From Candidatus Aminicenantota bacterium (lineage in GTDB: Bacteria; Acidobacteriota; Aminicenantia; UBA2199): 47,277 nucleotides of DNA. Of this stretch, positions 10,203 to 32,955 are shown in pieces. The translations under genes and the position numbers were made by a program. Under the pieces are notes generated by a model. It searched no databases. It had not been told where the DNA came from and saw nothing but the letters and a program-made list of their open reading frames with translations. The stretch spans positions 1 through 47,277 of the forward strand of contig JAUWQW010000006.1 of the NCBI GenBank assembly GCA_030610885.1, read 5' to 3'. Numbering within the stretch: the stretch's first letter is position 1; the number at the start of each line of letters is the position of its first letter.

Positions 10203-11291
10203 TTATTCTAAGATTTTCAATACCTCTTTTAACAAAATTTTAATCTCAAATTCAAAATTAGGTGTAAGAATATCCTTTCCGACATTTTCTTTGATTTTTT
10301 TTATTTTCCAGAATCCTCCATCTTCAATCTCTTGTTTATTAATAGTAATTTTTTTATCGTATCTCGAATAAAACATAAAAACAAGCTCAGATTCAATCTC
10401 AGTTTTCCATAAATATTTAGCAATAAAACTAACTTTGAATTCCCTTATTCCAAGTTCTTCTTCCGCCTCCCTTTTCAATGCATCCTCAACATTTTCACCA
10501 CTCAACACATGACCTCCAATTGCTGTATCCCATTTCCCCGGTTGTATCTGCTTTTTTATTGATCTTTTTTGTAAAAAAATCCTATCCCTGGAATCTATTA
10601 TATGCAAGTGAACAACCTGATGCATCATTTCAGGATTTGAATGACATATACTCCTTGGTGCTCTACCTTTAATTTTTCCAGAATGATCAACTATATCAAA
10701 CCATTCTTCATTATTATACTTATTAACCCTTCTTTTTTGTTTTAATCTTTTTTTTAAAACCTCAAAAATAAAATAAACAGCAAAAATTATATAAAACAAT
10801 CCCCCACTTATAAAAGCCCAGGCCCCTTCTGACATAAAAAATGCAGAATAAATTATCATACCAGTATGAATCAAAAATATGAAAAGTAAGCCTTTCAAAC
10901 TTTTTTTCAATTGGGTTAACTGCATTTCATTAAACTCAATATTTTTCATATAACGTTTTGACATAACATACATTATATTTATCGAAGAAAAAGCAGAAAC
11001 ACCTAATAAAATACATAAAATCAATTCAATAAGTGCAGGTTTTAATTTAAAAAAAATTGGGTTGTTAAATACAATAGAGACCAGACCAAGTAATACAATC
11101 ATTCCAACATCTAATAATATAAACTGATCTACTATTCTTTCTTTAATATATGAAACTATGAGCTCAATAATCCCGAATATTACAGCAGCAATTAGACCAA
11201 CCTTTGTTCCCCATATAGAATCTGCCACTATAAATATGATTAAAGGCAAAAATCCAGGTGCAAGACTTTTTAGAAGATCAAGCTTATTCAT
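10203..11291 (-). CDS. YciB-like membrane domain fused to a Nudix hydrolase
   Basis: A two-part protein of 362 residues from the ATG at 11291. Residues about 1-175 are membranous, about five to six helices, resembling the YciB/intracellular-septation family (LAPGFLPLIIFIVADSIWG). Residues about 195-360 are a Nudix domain of the isopentenyl-diphosphate isomerase/YfcD-like kind, with a perfect Nudix box from GHVLSGE to REAEEELGI and HLHIIDSRDRIFLQKRS before it. A TTG 10 codons upstream is an alternative start. The fusion would tether a Nudix enzyme to the inner membrane. Substrate unknown. Confidence 0.8.
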   Translation of the reverse strand: MNKLDLLKSLAPGFLPLIIFIVADSIWGTKVGLIAAVIFGIIELIVSYIKERIVDQFILLDVGMIVLLGLVSIVFNNPIFFKLKPALIELILCILLGVSAFSSINIMYVMSKRYMKNIEFNEMQLTQLKKSLKGLLFIFLIHTGMIIYSAFFMSEGAWAFISGGLFYIIFAVYFIFEVLKKRLKQKRRVNKYNNEEWFDIVDHSGKIKGRAPRSICHSNPEMMHQVVHLHIIDSRDRIFLQKRSIKKQIQPGKWDTAIGGHVLSGENVEDALKREAEEELGIREFKVSFIAKYLWKTEIESELVFMFYSRYDKKITINKQEIEDGGFWKIKKIKENVGKDILTPNFEFEIKILLKEVLKILE

Positions 11292-11349
11292 TATAAAACC
11301 ATTATGATATTTTCCCCTCAATTAAAAATCTTTTACTAATACAGGTTTT

Positions 11350-27390: not shown

Positions 27391-28083
27391 TTACAGAAAG
27401 CTATCAGAAGGATGATAAATTCGTTCATAAAGTTTTTTTTGAATAATTAGATAAAAAACTGGTTTTATTAATGATGTTTCTAAAAAATATACAAAGATAA
27501 AACCAAGTGTAAATATAAGAAAATTAACAGAGCCTTTAATAACAAATCCAGAACTAAATAAAAAGGAAATAATTGCAAAAGGTAGTAATATAACAATAAA
27601 AATAAAAAGTTCATAAAAAAAATATTTCCAAATTAGTCCCATGGAATTTTTTATCTCTTTAAAAGGGAAGACATTATTCTCTCTTCTAATTACTGATATA
27701 GCACATAATATTTTCCTTGAATAAATTTTAATATTTTGATCTTTTAATTCTTGTTTTGTCTTTTTTAGCTCTATTCTCCAATCTTTATTTACAACTGTAT
27801 CTGAAAAATCTTTTTTTTTATTTAAATAATTAAAAAATGCTATATTTAAATCATATTTATTTTTTAAAAAAAGATATCTTTCTAAAAAATAGTCTCCAAT
27901 AATTAAAACAAATAAAAAAACTATAAAAAGCATATTGTTATTCAAATATCTATAATTTATAAAAAAGATTAATAAAGTTGAAATTATTACAGCAAAAAAA
28001 TAAATAGAATAATAAAAAAAACCTATTAAAAATCTTTTATAAGAAAAACTCAAAAACATAAAAATATCTTTTATATCATTCAT
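27391..28083 (-). CDS. Unrecognised integral membrane protein after mraY
   Basis: A 230-residue protein with two N-terminal hydrophobic helices, a soluble lysine-rich middle (about 90-140) and two or three C-terminal helices. I recognise no family. The ATG shares one base with the mraY stop (TAATG), so it is translationally coupled and probably co-produced with the lipid II module. The position suggests a role linked to precursor membrane steps, but that is inference. Very AT-rich and Phe/Ile-rich like its neighbours. Confidence 0.7.
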   Translation of the reverse strand: MNDIKDIFMFLSFSYKRFLIGFFYYSIYFFAVIISTLLIFFINYRYLNNNMLFIVFLFVLIIGDYFLERYLFLKNKYDLNIAFFNYLNKKKDFSDTVVNKDWRIELKKTKQELKDQNIKIYSRKILCAISVIRRENNVFPFKEIKNSMGLIWKYFFYELFIFIVILLPFAIISFLFSSGFVIKGSVNFLIFTLGFIFVYFLETSLIKPVFYLIIQKKLYERIYHPSDSFL

Positions 28084-29180
28084 TATCTTAGCTTTATGCT
28101 TATTAAACTAACCAATGTAAATATAATTGCAATTATCCAGAACCTAACAACAATCTTCGGTTCTCCCACGCCTAGGAACTGATATGTATGATGAATAGGA
28201 GCTCTATAAAAAATTCTCCTTTTAAATAGCTTTATTCCTATATAATCCTGAATAAAAACAGACAAAAATTCAATCACAAAAATCCCCCCAGCAATCAAAA
28301 AAAGCACCTCCTTTTTCAACAAAACAGCAGTGGTTGCTATTACTCCACCTAAAAAAAGTGATCCTGTATCTCCCATAAATATTTCAGCCGGGTACGCATT
28401 AAACCATAAAAAAGCTGCAAGTGCCCCAATTAAAGCTGACATGGCTATTACCAATTCACCTGAACCATTTATATATGGAAATAATAAATAATCCGCTGCT
28501 TTTAAATTACCCAAAATATAAGCGAAAGCAGCATAAACTAAAGCTAACAATGCTACAGGAACAGTTGCAAGACCATCTAATCCATCTGCAAAATTTATTG
28601 AATTCGAAACTCCAATAACAACCAGAATTATAAATGGATAATAAAAATAAGATAAATCAATTACAGGATTTTTTATAAAAGGAACGAATAGTTTTGTAAT
28701 TATTTCTTTTGGAAAGGGAGACGAATTTTGAGATAATATAAGTAAAGCCAGAATTAATCCAAAGAGAGCTTGAAAAATAAGTTTTACACTCCTACTCATA
28801 CCCGAATCTACTGAGCCTCTTACATTCTTTAAATAATCATCAAAAAACCCAAGAGCTGTAAACCAGAAACCTGCAAACAATATAATCTTTATAAAAAAAT
28901 TATTTAAATTCCCCCATAATAATATAGAAACTAAAAATGAAATAAAAATAATCAATCCACCCATTGTTGGAGTACCAATCTTATTTTTTGATGAAATATT
29001 GCCATAATCTCTTGTTTTATCCCTGAAATCCAATTGATAAATTATATTTATTAACTTTTTACCAAAAAATACCCCTATTAAAAAAGATGTTAATACTGCC
29101 ATTAAAGACCTGAATGATATATACGAAACAAGCCTTTGTGCCGGAATATAGGAGAATAATTCTAAAAACCAAAATATCAT
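28083..29180 (-). CDS. mraY: Phospho-N-acetylmuramoyl-pentapeptide transferase MraY
   Basis: Makes lipid I by moving phospho-MurNAc-pentapeptide from UDP to undecaprenyl phosphate in the inner membrane. From the ATG at 29180 (365 residues) the family motifs are all present: GTPTMGG (69-75), FFDDYLK (112-118, catalytic Asp pair), NFADGLDG (196-203), FMGDTGS with D271 and APIHHTYQ (about 327-334). Ten hydrophobic helices are visible. A TTG three codons upstream is less likely. AAGGAG lies 10 bases before the ATG, inside the end of the MurG-MurJ fusion gene whose stop is one base away. Confidence 0.96.
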   Translation of the reverse strand: MIFWFLELFSYIPAQRLVSYISFRSLMAVLTSFLIGVFFGKKLINIIYQLDFRDKTRDYGNISSKNKIGTPTMGGLIIFISFLVSILLWGNLNNFFIKIILFAGFWFTALGFFDDYLKNVRGSVDSGMSRSVKLIFQALFGLILALLILSQNSSPFPKEIITKLFVPFIKNPVIDLSYFYYPFIILVVIGVSNSINFADGLDGLATVPVALLALVYAAFAYILGNLKAADYLLFPYINGSGELVIAMSALIGALAAFLWFNAYPAEIFMGDTGSLFLGGVIATTAVLLKKEVLFLIAGGIFVIEFLSVFIQDYIGIKLFKRRIFYRAPIHHTYQFLGVGEPKIVVRFWIIAIIFTLVSLISIKLR

Positions 29181-29181
29181 A

Positions 29182-32100
29182 CTAGTCAATCTCCTTGTAA
29201 ATTTTATTTATAATTGATTTCATTTTAAATTCAGGCATTAAATTATTGGATGTGATAAGAATTTTATTTATTTGTTCCTTTGTTTCATCTGAAGATAATA
29301 TATTCCTTTTATAATAACTATAAAATAACTCAAGCAACTCTTCTCGCAAAAGCGAATTACTACACAAATAAAAATTCTTCAAATATTGTAGATCTTCCTT
29401 ATTTCCAAGAGTAGCTATTAATCTTATATAAGATATGCTCTCTTCAATTGTAGATTTTTTTAATTTTATATGAATTAAATCTCTAAAATAATCATAGTCA
29501 TCAGGAGAAGTAATATTCTCAGTCAAATAATCAATTGCTGCAACCCTTACTTCATAATAAGGATCAGAAAGCATTTTTCTTATCAATTCCTTTATTTCTA
29601 CATTCCATATGTTTAATTCTCTCAATGAAATTAAGCTATTACGTTTAATAAACCCCTTTTCCTTTTTAGATTTTAAAATCTCAATAAGGCAATTTGCTTT
29701 AGTTTTATCCTTAAATAACCCAATTAATTTTATTCCAATATTTCTAACTTCCCACCTTCTATTTGCTAGATATATATTGATCTTATAATAGTAATCTCTC
29801 TTAAATTCATCAGGATTTTTTAAAACCTTCTCTAAAAAATTAAAAGGAGATAACATTGATATGGGAATATTATTTTTCTTTCTCAACAACCCCTTTTTAA
29901 AAATCAAAATCTCTGTATTTTTTAACATAAGAGAAAATAAAAAATATATTGAAACCCCAATAAATGATAAGGATATTATCAAAACTAAATTTCCAACAGG
30001 TTTAGAACTAAATTCAATTTGATCGAAAATAAATTTTGCCTGAACTAAAACAATGATCATAAATAGAGATGCTAAAAGTGTTTTAACAAAAGAAATAGAA
30101 ATTTCTTTATATTTTATAAAAATATCTTCTTTTTTTAAACAACTCTTTAAAACAACAATTCTAATAAAAGAAAAAAGAATAAAAGAGATTGATGTTGCAA
30201 GAGCAAGCCCTGCAAATTTCAAGGAAGTGGAAACTAAATAAATTGACAAACCTACATTTGTTAAAAGCATAAAAAAATTCAATATCATTGAAGTTTTAAT
30301 ATCCATTCTTGCAGAAAATATTCTTGTTGTAAGAGAATGTATTCCCCAGCCTATCAAACCAATTGAATAAAACTTAAGAGCAATAGATGTATTATGAACC
30401 ATAAAAATATTAAATTTCCCTCTCTCTAAAAGTAATGACACAATCGGACCTGAGAGGAAAATCATTAAAATTGAAACTGGAGTTAATAGGAATAAATTGG
30501 TTTTTATACCATCTAAAAATAGCCTTTTTGCTTTATCTTTTTCAAACAATGCAATTTTATCTGAAAACTCTTTTAATATAACACCATTGATTGCTTGTGA
30601 AATAAAGGAAAAAGGTAATCTGAAGATTGCTATAGAGAAATGAAGATATGCAATTGATCCTATTTTTAAGCCAGAAGCAAGAATTTTGTCAACTATTTCA
30701 GATGTTTTTGAAAGAAACACATCAATTGAAATAGGACCTAATTGAAAATAATATTTTTTATTTGTCTGTGTGTTGAAACTTATATGAGGTTTGTATGAAT
30801 ATTGTAAAGATTTATTCCTGAATATCCTGGTAACAAATGGAATTAAAATCAAAATTTGCATTAATCCACCCAATAATACACCTAAAGCAAGTGAATAAAT
30901 ACCAATAACAGAGTAAAACACCCATATTCCTGTTATTGTGCCTATAGAGAAAAAAACAGCAGAAGATTCAGCTATTCCAAATTTATTAAATGCTTTTAAA
31001 TATGTTGCAAAAACTGCAGCTATAGTCACTAAAAATAGATAAGGAAACATCAATCTTGTCATATTAACTGTTTCATGCATCATTCCCTTTTCAACAAATG
31101 AGGGGCATATGATTTTCAAAATTACTGGTGTAAGAATAATACCAATAATTGTAAATATAAAAGATAACAAAATAGTTACATTTATAATTGAAGAAGCATG
31201 TTCCCACGTTTTTTTGCGAGAACTCCTATGAAAAATTCTTTGAAAAATCGGAAGAAATGCATTTTCCAAAGCATTTTCTGCTACAATACGGCGCATAAAA
31301 TTAGAAATAGTAAGCCCTATAACAAAAATATCCGTAGCTCTACCAGCTCCGAAAATAGCAGCTATGACCACTTCTCTTAAGAACCCCCCTATTCTAGAAA
31401 CAATTATTCCAAAAGAAGAACCCATTATTTTTGAAGATGTTGATTTTTCAAAATCAATCTTTTCAACCTTTTCAAAATAGCTTTTTAAAAAGTAAGTCTT
31501 ATCTCCAATTTCTAACCTATCACCCTCTTTAATTTCAATCCATTCATTTACATCCTGTCCATTTAACAATATTTTACCCTTAACTCTCTTTAAGACTAAT
31601 TTATCTCCATTTGTTAAATTTCTTATTGTAAACAAAATATCATCATCATTTATTTCAAGGTAAACATCACTCAAAAAAGAATTACCAAAAGTAGTTGAAT
31701 CAAAAATCAATTCATAGCTCTTTTCAGTATCCTCAGATTGTAAATAAAAAATCTTAATTTGTTTTTCCTTTGCTTTCTCTTCCCCTAAAACAATCTGCTC
31801 AATTTCTTTAAGTATCAATTCTGAACTATTCTGCTTTTCTCCCTCTCTTAAGTGTTTCCTCATATTAAAGAGATGATTACCCTCGAACAATGTCTCTTTT
31901 ATCACATTTAGAAGGGCTTTTCCTGGAATATAAATAATCTGTTTATTATCTTTATTAATAACCTCCTCATATACTACCCTTGCCCCACCCATCTTTTTTA
32001 CCTCATTAGCATTCAATATTTGATGATCATCTGGAAGATTAATTTTCGGAATAAGTATAGAAGGAATTCCAAGAGTTGTAATTTCTTTTATAGTACCAGC

Positions 32101-32955
32101 ACCAGCCCTTGACACTATAAGATCAGTAATAGAATATATTTCATCTATATTATCAAAATATTCTCTTATTATAAATTTCCCTTTAATATCTGAAGATATA
32201 TCCATTTCCTGGAGAATTCTTACAGTATCATCAAATGCTTTATAATTCTTTGAATAGCCTCTACCAGTAGACAAAATAATTGTTAAGTCTTTTATTGCAA
32301 GAAGCATAGGTATTATCTCAACAATAGCTCTATTAATTGTCCTTGCCCCTCCACTACCCCCAAAAACAAAGACCACCTTGTTTTTCTCAGGAATATCATA
32401 TTTTGCTTTTATATTTTCACTCCTGTTAAATCTAATTGATCTTCTTAAAGGATAGCCTGTAATAACAACTTTATTGTCAGGTAAATATTTATATGAAGAT
32501 GGAAAAGAAACTCCAATCCTTGTTGCAAATTTTGAAACAAATCTGTTTAATCTTCCGGGCACTGCATTTTGTTCATGAATAAAAATTTTCAATTTAAGTA
32601 GAGATGCAGCAAATAAAATAGGTGCTGATGCATACCCACCACTTCCAATAACAATATCAGGTTTAAATTTTTTTATAATAAAAAAACTCTTTAATGTGCC
32701 AAAGAAAATATAAAATATAGATATAATGGTTTTTAAACTCTTGATTTTTTGAGGTATTGCCTTTGATAAAATATTTACAAATTCAATTGGCTGAGAAATA
32801 TTTCTTATGATTCTATTCTCAGCTCCCTTTTTTGTTCCAAGATATAAAAACTGAGACTCAGGGTATTTCTCTTTTATTACCTCATATATTGCAATATTAG
32901 GATAAACATGACCACCTGTGCCACCACCAGTAAAAATTATTTTCATCTTTTCCAT
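29182..32955 (-). CDS. murG-murJ: MurG-FHA-like-MurJ-HEAT fusion protein
   Basis: One 1257-residue chain holding two successive enzymes of lipid II handling. Residues 1-390 are MurG, which adds GlcNAc to lipid I: GGGTGGHVYP (10-19), IHEQNAVPGRLNR (126-138), FGGSGGARTIN (198-208) and VSRAGAGTIKE (281-291). Residues about 398-495 form an FHA-like beta domain ending ILLNGQDVNEWIEIKEGDRLEIG, lacking the usual Gly-Arg and Ser-X2-His phosphothreonine-binding residues. Residues about 505-1025 are MurJ/MviN, the lipid II flippase: SRIGGFLRE (520-528), D542, NFMRRIVAENALENAF (552-567). Residues 1040-1257 are helical pairs resembling HEAT repeats. The ORF has no internal stop or frame change. mraY follows one base later. 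Confidence 0.93.
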   Translation of the reverse strand: MEKMKIIFTGGGTGGHVYPNIAIYEVIKEKYPESQFLYLGTKKGAENRIIRNISQPIEFVNILSKAIPQKIKSLKTIISIFYIFFGTLKSFFIIKKFKPDIVIGSGGYASAPILFAASLLKLKIFIHEQNAVPGRLNRFVSKFATRIGVSFPSSYKYLPDNKVVITGYPLRRSIRFNRSENIKAKYDIPEKNKVVFVFGGSGGARTINRAIVEIIPMLLAIKDLTIILSTGRGYSKNYKAFDDTVRILQEMDISSDIKGKFIIREYFDNIDEIYSITDLIVSRAGAGTIKEITTLGIPSILIPKINLPDDHQILNANEVKKMGGARVVYEEVINKDNKQIIYIPGKALLNVIKETLFEGNHLFNMRKHLREGEKQNSSELILKEIEQIVLGEEKAKEKQIKIFYLQSEDTEKSYELIFDSTTFGNSFLSDVYLEINDDDILFTIRNLTNGDKLVLKRVKGKILLNGQDVNEWIEIKEGDRLEIGDKTYFLKSYFEKVEKIDFEKSTSSKIMGSSFGIIVSRIGGFLREVVIAAIFGAGRATDIFVIGLTISNFMRRIVAENALENAFLPIFQRIFHRSSRKKTWEHASSIINVTILLSFIFTIIGIILTPVILKIICPSFVEKGMMHETVNMTRLMFPYLFLVTIAAVFATYLKAFNKFGIAESSAVFFSIGTITGIWVFYSVIGIYSLALGVLLGGLMQILILIPFVTRIFRNKSLQYSYKPHISFNTQTNKKYYFQLGPISIDVFLSKTSEIVDKILASGLKIGSIAYLHFSIAIFRLPFSFISQAINGVILKEFSDKIALFEKDKAKRLFLDGIKTNLFLLTPVSILMIFLSGPIVSLLLERGKFNIFMVHNTSIALKFYSIGLIGWGIHSLTTRIFSARMDIKTSMILNFFMLLTNVGLSIYLVSTSLKFAGLALATSISFILFSFIRIVVLKSCLKKEDIFIKYKEISISFVKTLLASLFMIIVLVQAKFIFDQIEFSSKPVGNLVLIISLSFIGVSIYFLFSLMLKNTEILIFKKGLLRKKNNIPISMLSPFNFLEKVLKNPDEFKRDYYYKINIYLANRRWEVRNIGIKLIGLFKDKTKANCLIEILKSKKEKGFIKRNSLISLRELNIWNVEIKELIRKMLSDPYYEVRVAAIDYLTENITSPDDYDYFRDLIHIKLKKSTIEESISYIRLIATLGNKEDLQYLKNFYLCSNSLLREELLELFYSYYKRNILSSDETKEQINKILITSNNLMPEFKMKSIINKIYKEID

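Follow-up and report, generated by a model that had tools for sequence, protein, structure and literature searches.

Several natural fusions of peptidoglycan enzymes are known, and the available text of two reports names MurE-MurF, MurB-MurC, MurG-MurC, MurC-Ddl, and MraY-MurG (PMC6420597) as well as FtsW-MurG from Kribbella flavida (PMC4929429). Like the protein described here, FtsW-MurG and MraY-MurG couple MurG with a polytopic membrane protein that acts in the lipid II pathway, but the partner is FtsW or MraY instead of the flippase MurJ, and neither an FHA nor a HEAT domain is mentioned in the accessible parts of these reports. The MurE-MurF protein of Bordetella pertussis is also a natural fusion of consecutive peptidoglycan steps, for which shuttling has been proposed, whereas it consists of two Mur ligases without a flippase, with active sites modelled about 35 Å apart (PMC6420597, available text). 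In mycobacteria, MurJ (MviN) is linked with an FHA protein as well, but there FhaA is a protein on its own and binds to the pseudokinase domain of MviN once this is phosphorylated, according to the part of the report available (PMC11898655). We analyzed a stretch of 47,277 nucleotides (hereafter the window; contig JAUWQW010000006.1 of assembly GCA_030610885.1) from a Candidatus Aminicenantota bacterium, and found that a single gene at 29182..32955 on the minus strand encodes MurG and MurJ on one polypeptide, together with an FHA-fold domain and a C-terminal HEAT-like domain. To our knowledge, the route of lipid II from MurG to the flippase and the existence of one MraY-MurG-MurJ complex are open questions. 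No description of a MurG-MurJ fusion was found in the open-access literature, and it is absent from the fusions named in the available text of PMC6420597 and PMC4929429, in keeping with the sequence-only reading that preceded this analysis and knew of no described protein with such an architecture. Three features of this protein are unusual: a membrane transporter separates a soluble enzyme from the C-terminal domain of that enzyme, an FHA fold is inserted, and a residue essential to the E. coli protein is displaced.

The fusion frame runs from an ATG at 32955 to a TAG stop codon at 29184-29182 with no internal stop, and encodes 1257 residues in the order MurG-FHA-MurJ-HEAT, as supported by the open reading frame, Pfam, NCBIfam, and full-length relatives. 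The mraY gene (28083..29180, minus strand) starts with an ATG at 29180, one base past this stop codon, and its product scored 290 bits against the TIGR00445 profile (cut-off 192). Both points had been made by the sequence-only reading, which placed the uninterrupted 1257-codon frame and the mraY start correctly and recognized the MurG and MurJ parts, but overlooked the FHA-fold domain (about residues 391-505), the HEAT domain (about residues 1046-1257), and also the other order of the domains and the relatives with MurG-HEAT, which are informative on the origin of the fusion. A stop codon or frame change at residues 390-505, which it had named as a result that would speak against a true fusion, was not found, and this region reads through without interruption here and in the family's 18 other intact frames. 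The full architecture recurs in other genomes at 44-87% identity, and the nearest contigs with a name come from metagenome bins of Candidatus Aminicenantes, the best with 87% identity over the full length. An assembly or frameshift artefact was ruled out by the intact frame in 33 genomes and by the length-conserved alignment to the nearest full-length relative (L034), which shows no length difference from the window's fusion. In comparison with L034, the ratio of nonsynonymous to synonymous substitution rates (dN/dS) was 0.03-0.22 across all six segments of the gene, both 35-codon junction segments included. The third-position differences from the same relative amounted to 9% in codons 375-944 (30124-31833) and to 24% in the rest of the fusion gene, compared with 20% in mraY and 22% in the M16 peptidase gene that lies upstream on the same strand. 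The low divergence of codons 375-944 was reached in none of 2000 shuffles, which suggests that the FHA-MurJ stretch has recombined. In a plasmid collection, 98 records matched the query, none over more than 80% of it at one place, and no fusion was found.

The MurG (GT28) domain comprises residues 1-355 (31891..32955, minus strand) and was assigned by Pfam, PDB matches, and residue alignment. Both Pfam GT28 domains were matched above their cut-offs, the N domain at residues 6-148 (6.3e-33) and the C domain at residues 194-367 (6.1e-26), and the best PDB sequence matches include 7d1i, 3s2u, and 1f0k. The NCBIfam MurG profile TIGR01133 gave 237 bits (241 in the genome search), just below its equivalog cut-off of 250.25; this cut-off was passed in 3 of the 38 genomes searched (35 with a fusion and 3 with adjacent genes), and in 9 of 14 control genomes, all 14 of which matched the profile. 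The window's MurG keeps the equivalents of E. coli H19, E126, N128, R164, S192, E269, and Q289, which we take to be active-site positions, and the seven are conserved in all 32 fusion sequences compared, except that one truncated frame does not reach H19. At position 288, His is found in the window and in all 57 other MurG rows compared. The TIGR01133 search gave no further strong MurG in any of the 38 genomes, the 35 with a fusion and the 3 with adjacent genes alike, so that a separate intact murG elsewhere, another possible objection raised by the earlier reading, did not turn up; the next match in the fusion genomes was at most 43.5 bits, apart from a contig-cut piece of 98.9 bits in G471 that covers the part absent from the fusion of that genome. 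The window's genome contains one MurG match only.

The MurJ domain occupies residues 514-1008 (29932..31416, minus strand), as judged from Pfam, NCBIfam, and PDB matches. Pfam MurJ was matched at residues 531-978 (1e-79), above its cut-off, and the NCBIfam MurJ profile TIGR01695 gave 294 bits, above the equivalog cut-off of 235.55. Solved MurJ structures (7wag, 6cc4, and 5t77 among them) are the best PDB sequence matches. The counterparts of E. coli R18 and R24 in the window's MurJ are R521 and R527, and in the 24 nested sequences compared (18 of the window's family, f1, and 6 of family f2) R24 is kept in all, R18 in 20, and R52 in 21.

Between these two domains, residues 391-505 (31441..31785, minus strand) form a predicted FHA-fold domain, which was assigned by a structure model, Foldseek, and profiles. 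The 131-residue model of the linker region is all-beta and of moderate confidence, with a predicted local distance difference test score (pLDDT) of 72.4 and a predicted template modelling score (pTM) of 0.64. The top Foldseek matches were FHA structures, with CEP170 first (8.8e-4, the sole one at or below 0.001), followed by EmbR, Rv0020c, and YscD among others; 4jon and EmbR both belong to the FHA structures. One of 11 linker members matched the Pfam family of the YscD cytoplasmic domain (2.3e-6), the Pfam FHA family did not match the linker domain, the best Pfam match of the window's linker was SPP1_Dit (0.0042, below cut-off), and a profile search of PDB sequences with the linker gave nothing significant (best E 0.46). 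FHA domains carry a canonical Arg/Ser/His set for phosphothreonine binding. In the linker members, Arg follows the conserved Gly in 0 of 11, and no column has a common His or Arg in at least 8 of 11; phosphopeptide binding is doubtful because the usual residues for it appear to be missing. In contrast to the MviN-FhaA pair of mycobacteria, the FHA-fold domain is here part of the chain and separates MurG from MurJ, no pseudokinase was matched by Pfam, and the phosphothreonine-binding residues are missing. That the linker is a remnant of the inter-domain region of MurG-HEAT proteins was not supported, since hhalign found only the first 31-47 columns, at the MurG end, to be shared. An FHA-like domain occurs in the window's family and again in genus g6 of family f2 (91.8%), while the interval in genus g5 is only 47-61 residues long.

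The C-terminal HEAT-like domain (residues 1046-1257; 29185..29820, minus strand) is homologous to the C-terminus of MurG-HEAT proteins. Its HEAT match in the window, 20.4 bits, lies below the Pfam cut-off of 27.7. Among eight relatives with the homologous domain that were scanned, three passed the HEAT_2 cut-off (L079 with 85.3 bits, L081 with 55.5, and L117 with 39.9), L122 was just below it with 27.3 bits, and L067, L074, L075, and L126 gave no HEAT match at E 0.01. We searched the 227-residue C-terminal piece alone against 396 genomes of the phylum, and found it at 53 places in 49 genomes. In 46 of the 49 genomes it lies in MurG-bearing frames or at a contig-cut fusion end (49 of the 53 places), the four other places being G091:C273, G303:C121, G364:C39, and G276:C23; the match was thus not a generic repeat match. 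In the loci compared, no HEAT domain was present in the frames of 20 stand-alone MurJ loci (13 of the class) or of 11 short MurG loci (8 of the class). Because related families have MurG-HEAT without MurJ, we assign the HEAT domain to MurG, and sequence comparison places MurJ nested inside MurG-HEAT in this protein. Such MurG-HEAT proteins of other families in the phylum share the MurG clade, the C-terminal HEAT domain, and the mraY gene behind, but have no MurJ in the chain; they were found in 22 genomes among the loci examined, three of genus g98 included, and no published description of them was found.

The intact fusion is present in 33 genomes, with the order MurG-FHA-MurJ-HEAT in 19, MurG-MurJ-HEAT in 6, and MurJ-MurG-HEAT in 8, and five further genomes have MurG, FHA, and MurJ in one frame cut by a contig end. 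The class was sampled with 142 genomes, of which 34 belong to family f1; 19 of these have the intact fusion, 5 the contig-end-cut form, 3 a piece only, and 7 none. MurG-MurJ-HEAT was found in six of the seven genomes of family f2, the seventh being without a match, and MurJ-MurG-HEAT in all five of family f6. Among the matches listed, the other families of the class have MurG and MurJ separate. Beyond the class, MurJ-MurG-HEAT was also found in three genomes of genus g36 in family f22, whereas in three of genus g98 in the same family murJ is a separate gene that overlaps murG-HEAT. In three genomes of family f35, a very divergent MurJ (branch 2.26), in which Thr replaces R270 and Gln replaces R52, lies directly behind murG-HEAT and mraY (L117 6465-8063, L118 10536-12173, and L119 10163-11800). 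Six genomes of genus g2 in family f1 (G083, G138, G351, G480, G484, and G485; 73-93% complete) gave no MurG match except 27 bits in G351, and MraY-profile matches of at most 70 bits, and kept the Mur ligases and FtsW/RodA; the murG-murJ/mraY locus either drops out of these bins or is truly absent.

The phylogenetic trees, both midpoint-rooted, bear on the origin of the fusion. The 46 rows with a HEAT domain all fall into a single clade of the MurG tree (99/98), apart from 11 short MurGs and from a distant row of WOR-3; this last row was used in the tree and in the residue comparison, and left out of the approximately unbiased (AU) test. In the MurJ tree, the 35 rows fused to or directly against murG-HEAT lie on one side of a branch (100/99), and f1 and f2 are grouped (100/98), as would fit one origin of the nested form. 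In the MurG tree, f1 and f2 are not grouped and f2 branches first (87/90 for the remainder), although the AU test on MurG did not reject their grouping (p 0.085). The simplest reading of these relationships is that MurG-HEAT came first, that murJ then became its neighbour, and that the two were fused in two ways, with MurJ in front or nested. Because of the midpoint rooting and of the early f2 branch in the MurG tree, the trees fall short of proving this order, and MurJ may instead have been lost from an early fusion. The separate genes of genus g98 may be the ancestral state or the result of a later split.

From these results, we think it reasonably probable that the protein is a membrane-bound, bifunctional, tethered lipid II synthase-flippase beside MraY, whose product is captured by the attached flippase. 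In favour of this reading, the same two proteins are united in two domain orders, and one genus has them as separate overlapping genes. The N-terminal MurG would add N-acetylglucosamine to lipid I at the cytoplasmic face, the attached MurJ domain would flip the resulting lipid II, and the FHA-fold and HEAT domains may be cytoplasmic scaffold modules. The protein would most likely derive from a MurG-HEAT enzyme, with a neighbouring murJ nested between MurG and HEAT. Both ends of MurJ face the cytoplasm, so that MurG and HEAT would stay cytoplasmic with MurJ either nested or in front. MurJ has 14 transmembrane helices (PMC9973255, available text). Since mraY lies one base behind the fusion, the proteins that make lipid I, turn it into lipid II, and flip the product are probably synthesized together and kept together. 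In the available part of an in vitro study, E. coli MurJ draws lipid II from MurG and MraY by its higher affinity (PMC9046198), and a tether could therefore shorten this step. A direct handover of lipid II from MurG to MurJ is plausible. The fusion, its conservation, the lack of another strong MurG, and the place of mraY are observed here, and the two activities, the order of evolution, a complex with MraY, and the handover are inferred from them.

Several observations weigh against this reading. The model of residues 1-1200 (pLDDT 63.8, pTM 0.39) gives no reliable domain orientation, including that of the MurG cleft towards the MurJ cavity. R18, R24, and R270 are essential in E. coli MurJ, according to the available text of one report (PMC9973255), and R270 maps to Ala776 in the window, with an Arg three residues further, at 779 (codons 776-779, 30619..30630, minus strand). 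Arg stands at the R270 position in only one of the 24 nested sequences, and three residues past it in 20 of them; it is present in all 8 MurJ-first, 3 adjacent, and 20 stand-alone sequences, and in none of the three of family f35, which have Thr. The Arg one helical turn on could leave a charge in the cavity. In addition, of the 24 nested sequences, 4 depart from R18, 3 from R52, and 5 from E57; sequences of genus g2 in f1 are among those that alter R18, R52, or E57, and one sequence of genus g214 has R18 replaced by Lys. The fused MurJ of six g2 genomes (G482, G478, G481, G034, G477, and G288) scored 202-217 bits, below the TIGR01695 cut-off, and because of these residue changes and scores, flippase activity appears less sure in the g2 fusions. 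A further full-length MurJ was found with TIGR01695 in 9 of the 35 fusion genomes (G470, G013, G276, G474, G473, G472, G482, G129, and G464), and in the window's own genome (2.5 Mb, 128 contigs, 92.6% complete) a contig-cut 197-residue open frame on C20 passes the Pfam MurJ cut-off with 33.9 bits. Read from its first start, this frame has 185 residues and scores 26 bits; the match on C20 to TIGR01695 is 33.7 bits, against the cut-off of 235.55. The other frame of that genome that matches MurJ profiles, of 454 residues, is Wzx-like, its best Pfam family being Polysacc_synt_3 (82.7 bits versus 55.9 for MurJ). Neither of the two looks like a MurJ equivalog, but with the C20 frame truncated and the genome incomplete, a second MurJ retains a small probability. 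The earlier description of MurG and MurJ as complete-looking stands for a true MurG-MurJ polypeptide, but not for the completeness of MurJ, given Ala at the R270 position and the non-Arg residue in 23 of the 24 nested sequences; a second murJ, by which the sequence-only reading thought its view could be overturned, is lacking in full-length form from the window's genome and present in the nine fusion genomes named.

A more ambitious version is that the single chain passes lipid II straight into the MurJ cavity, with the FHA-fold domain as a gate, the HEAT domain docking MraY, and the substrate arginine shifted by one helical turn, so that one unit would perform assembly and export; we regard this as tentative and rather doubtful. 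Unlikely, in our judgement, is a plain tether, in which both domains are active, the fusion fixes stoichiometry and location only, and lipid II diffuses to any MurJ without channelling. As there are two domain orders and one genus lacks the linker domain, a single precise docking geometry does not seem to be needed, and separate proteins already move lipid II to MurJ by affinity in vitro (PMC9046198, available text). Against a plain tether it can be argued that fusion in two orders points to a benefit from closeness, which is less sure with the neighbouring genes of g98.

If the MurJ of the nested class had lost or changed its flippase function, it would serve as a membrane anchor or a lipid II-sensing scaffold for MurG, and another transporter would flip lipid II. 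The missing R270 equivalent, the alterations of R18, R52, or E57 in several sequences, the six genomes below the equivalog cut-off, and the extra MurJ in 9 of 35 genomes are consistent with this, as are the Wzx-like flippase and the contig-cut frame of the window's own genome. We consider it distinctly unlikely, as 20 of the 24 nested sequences have Arg at +3, the window's MurJ reaches 294 bits, the five most complete nested-fusion genomes (98-100%; G047, G240, G004, G369, and G020) have no other MurJ match above 42 bits, and R18, R24, R52, and R270 are kept in all eight MurJ-first fusions. A post-translational cut into separate MurG and MurJ, by which the fusion would be genetic only and for which no support was found, is very improbable, since the junction is under purifying selection (residues 356-390, dN/dS 0.03 against L034 over 35 codons) and the cut would part MurG from its own HEAT domain.

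Of 85 rows of murG-HEAT or fusion loci, which include duplicates of one genome, 81 have the mraY start between -300 and +100 bases from the end; two of the four misses represent one and the same gene, located at a contig edge, and the other two have a longer mraY call with a larger overlap. A ribosome-binding-like site for mraY, AAGGAG, was read from the sequence inside the 3' end of the fusion (29191..29196, minus strand). An in-frame TTG at 29187-29189 is an alternative mraY start that would overlap the fusion by 8 bases, and several relatives have a comparable overlap by the longest-frame call. Behind mraY, a 230-residue frame with hydrophobic stretches (27391-28083) has no Pfam match at E 0.001 and, among the loci compared, matches within the window's family only. 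Three Mur ligases and an ftsW/rodA-family gene are clustered on another contig of the source genome (G000, C19, 5329-9858), so that mraY and murG sit away from the Mur ligase cluster. Elsewhere in the window, a 372-residue frame (10203-11321) looks, by eye, hydrophobic in its N-terminal part and Nudix-like in its C-terminal part.

A natural fusion in two domain orders, in genomes where the search found no other strong MurG, is genomic evidence that MurJ acts directly after MurG, and it offers a ready-made construct for tests of substrate transfer. The clade-wide shift of an arginine on which E. coli MurJ depends is a natural experiment on lipid II binding by MurJ. The HEAT domain linked to MurG, which 49 of the phylum's 396 genomes match, could represent a so far unstudied scaffold in the early steps of peptidoglycan synthesis.

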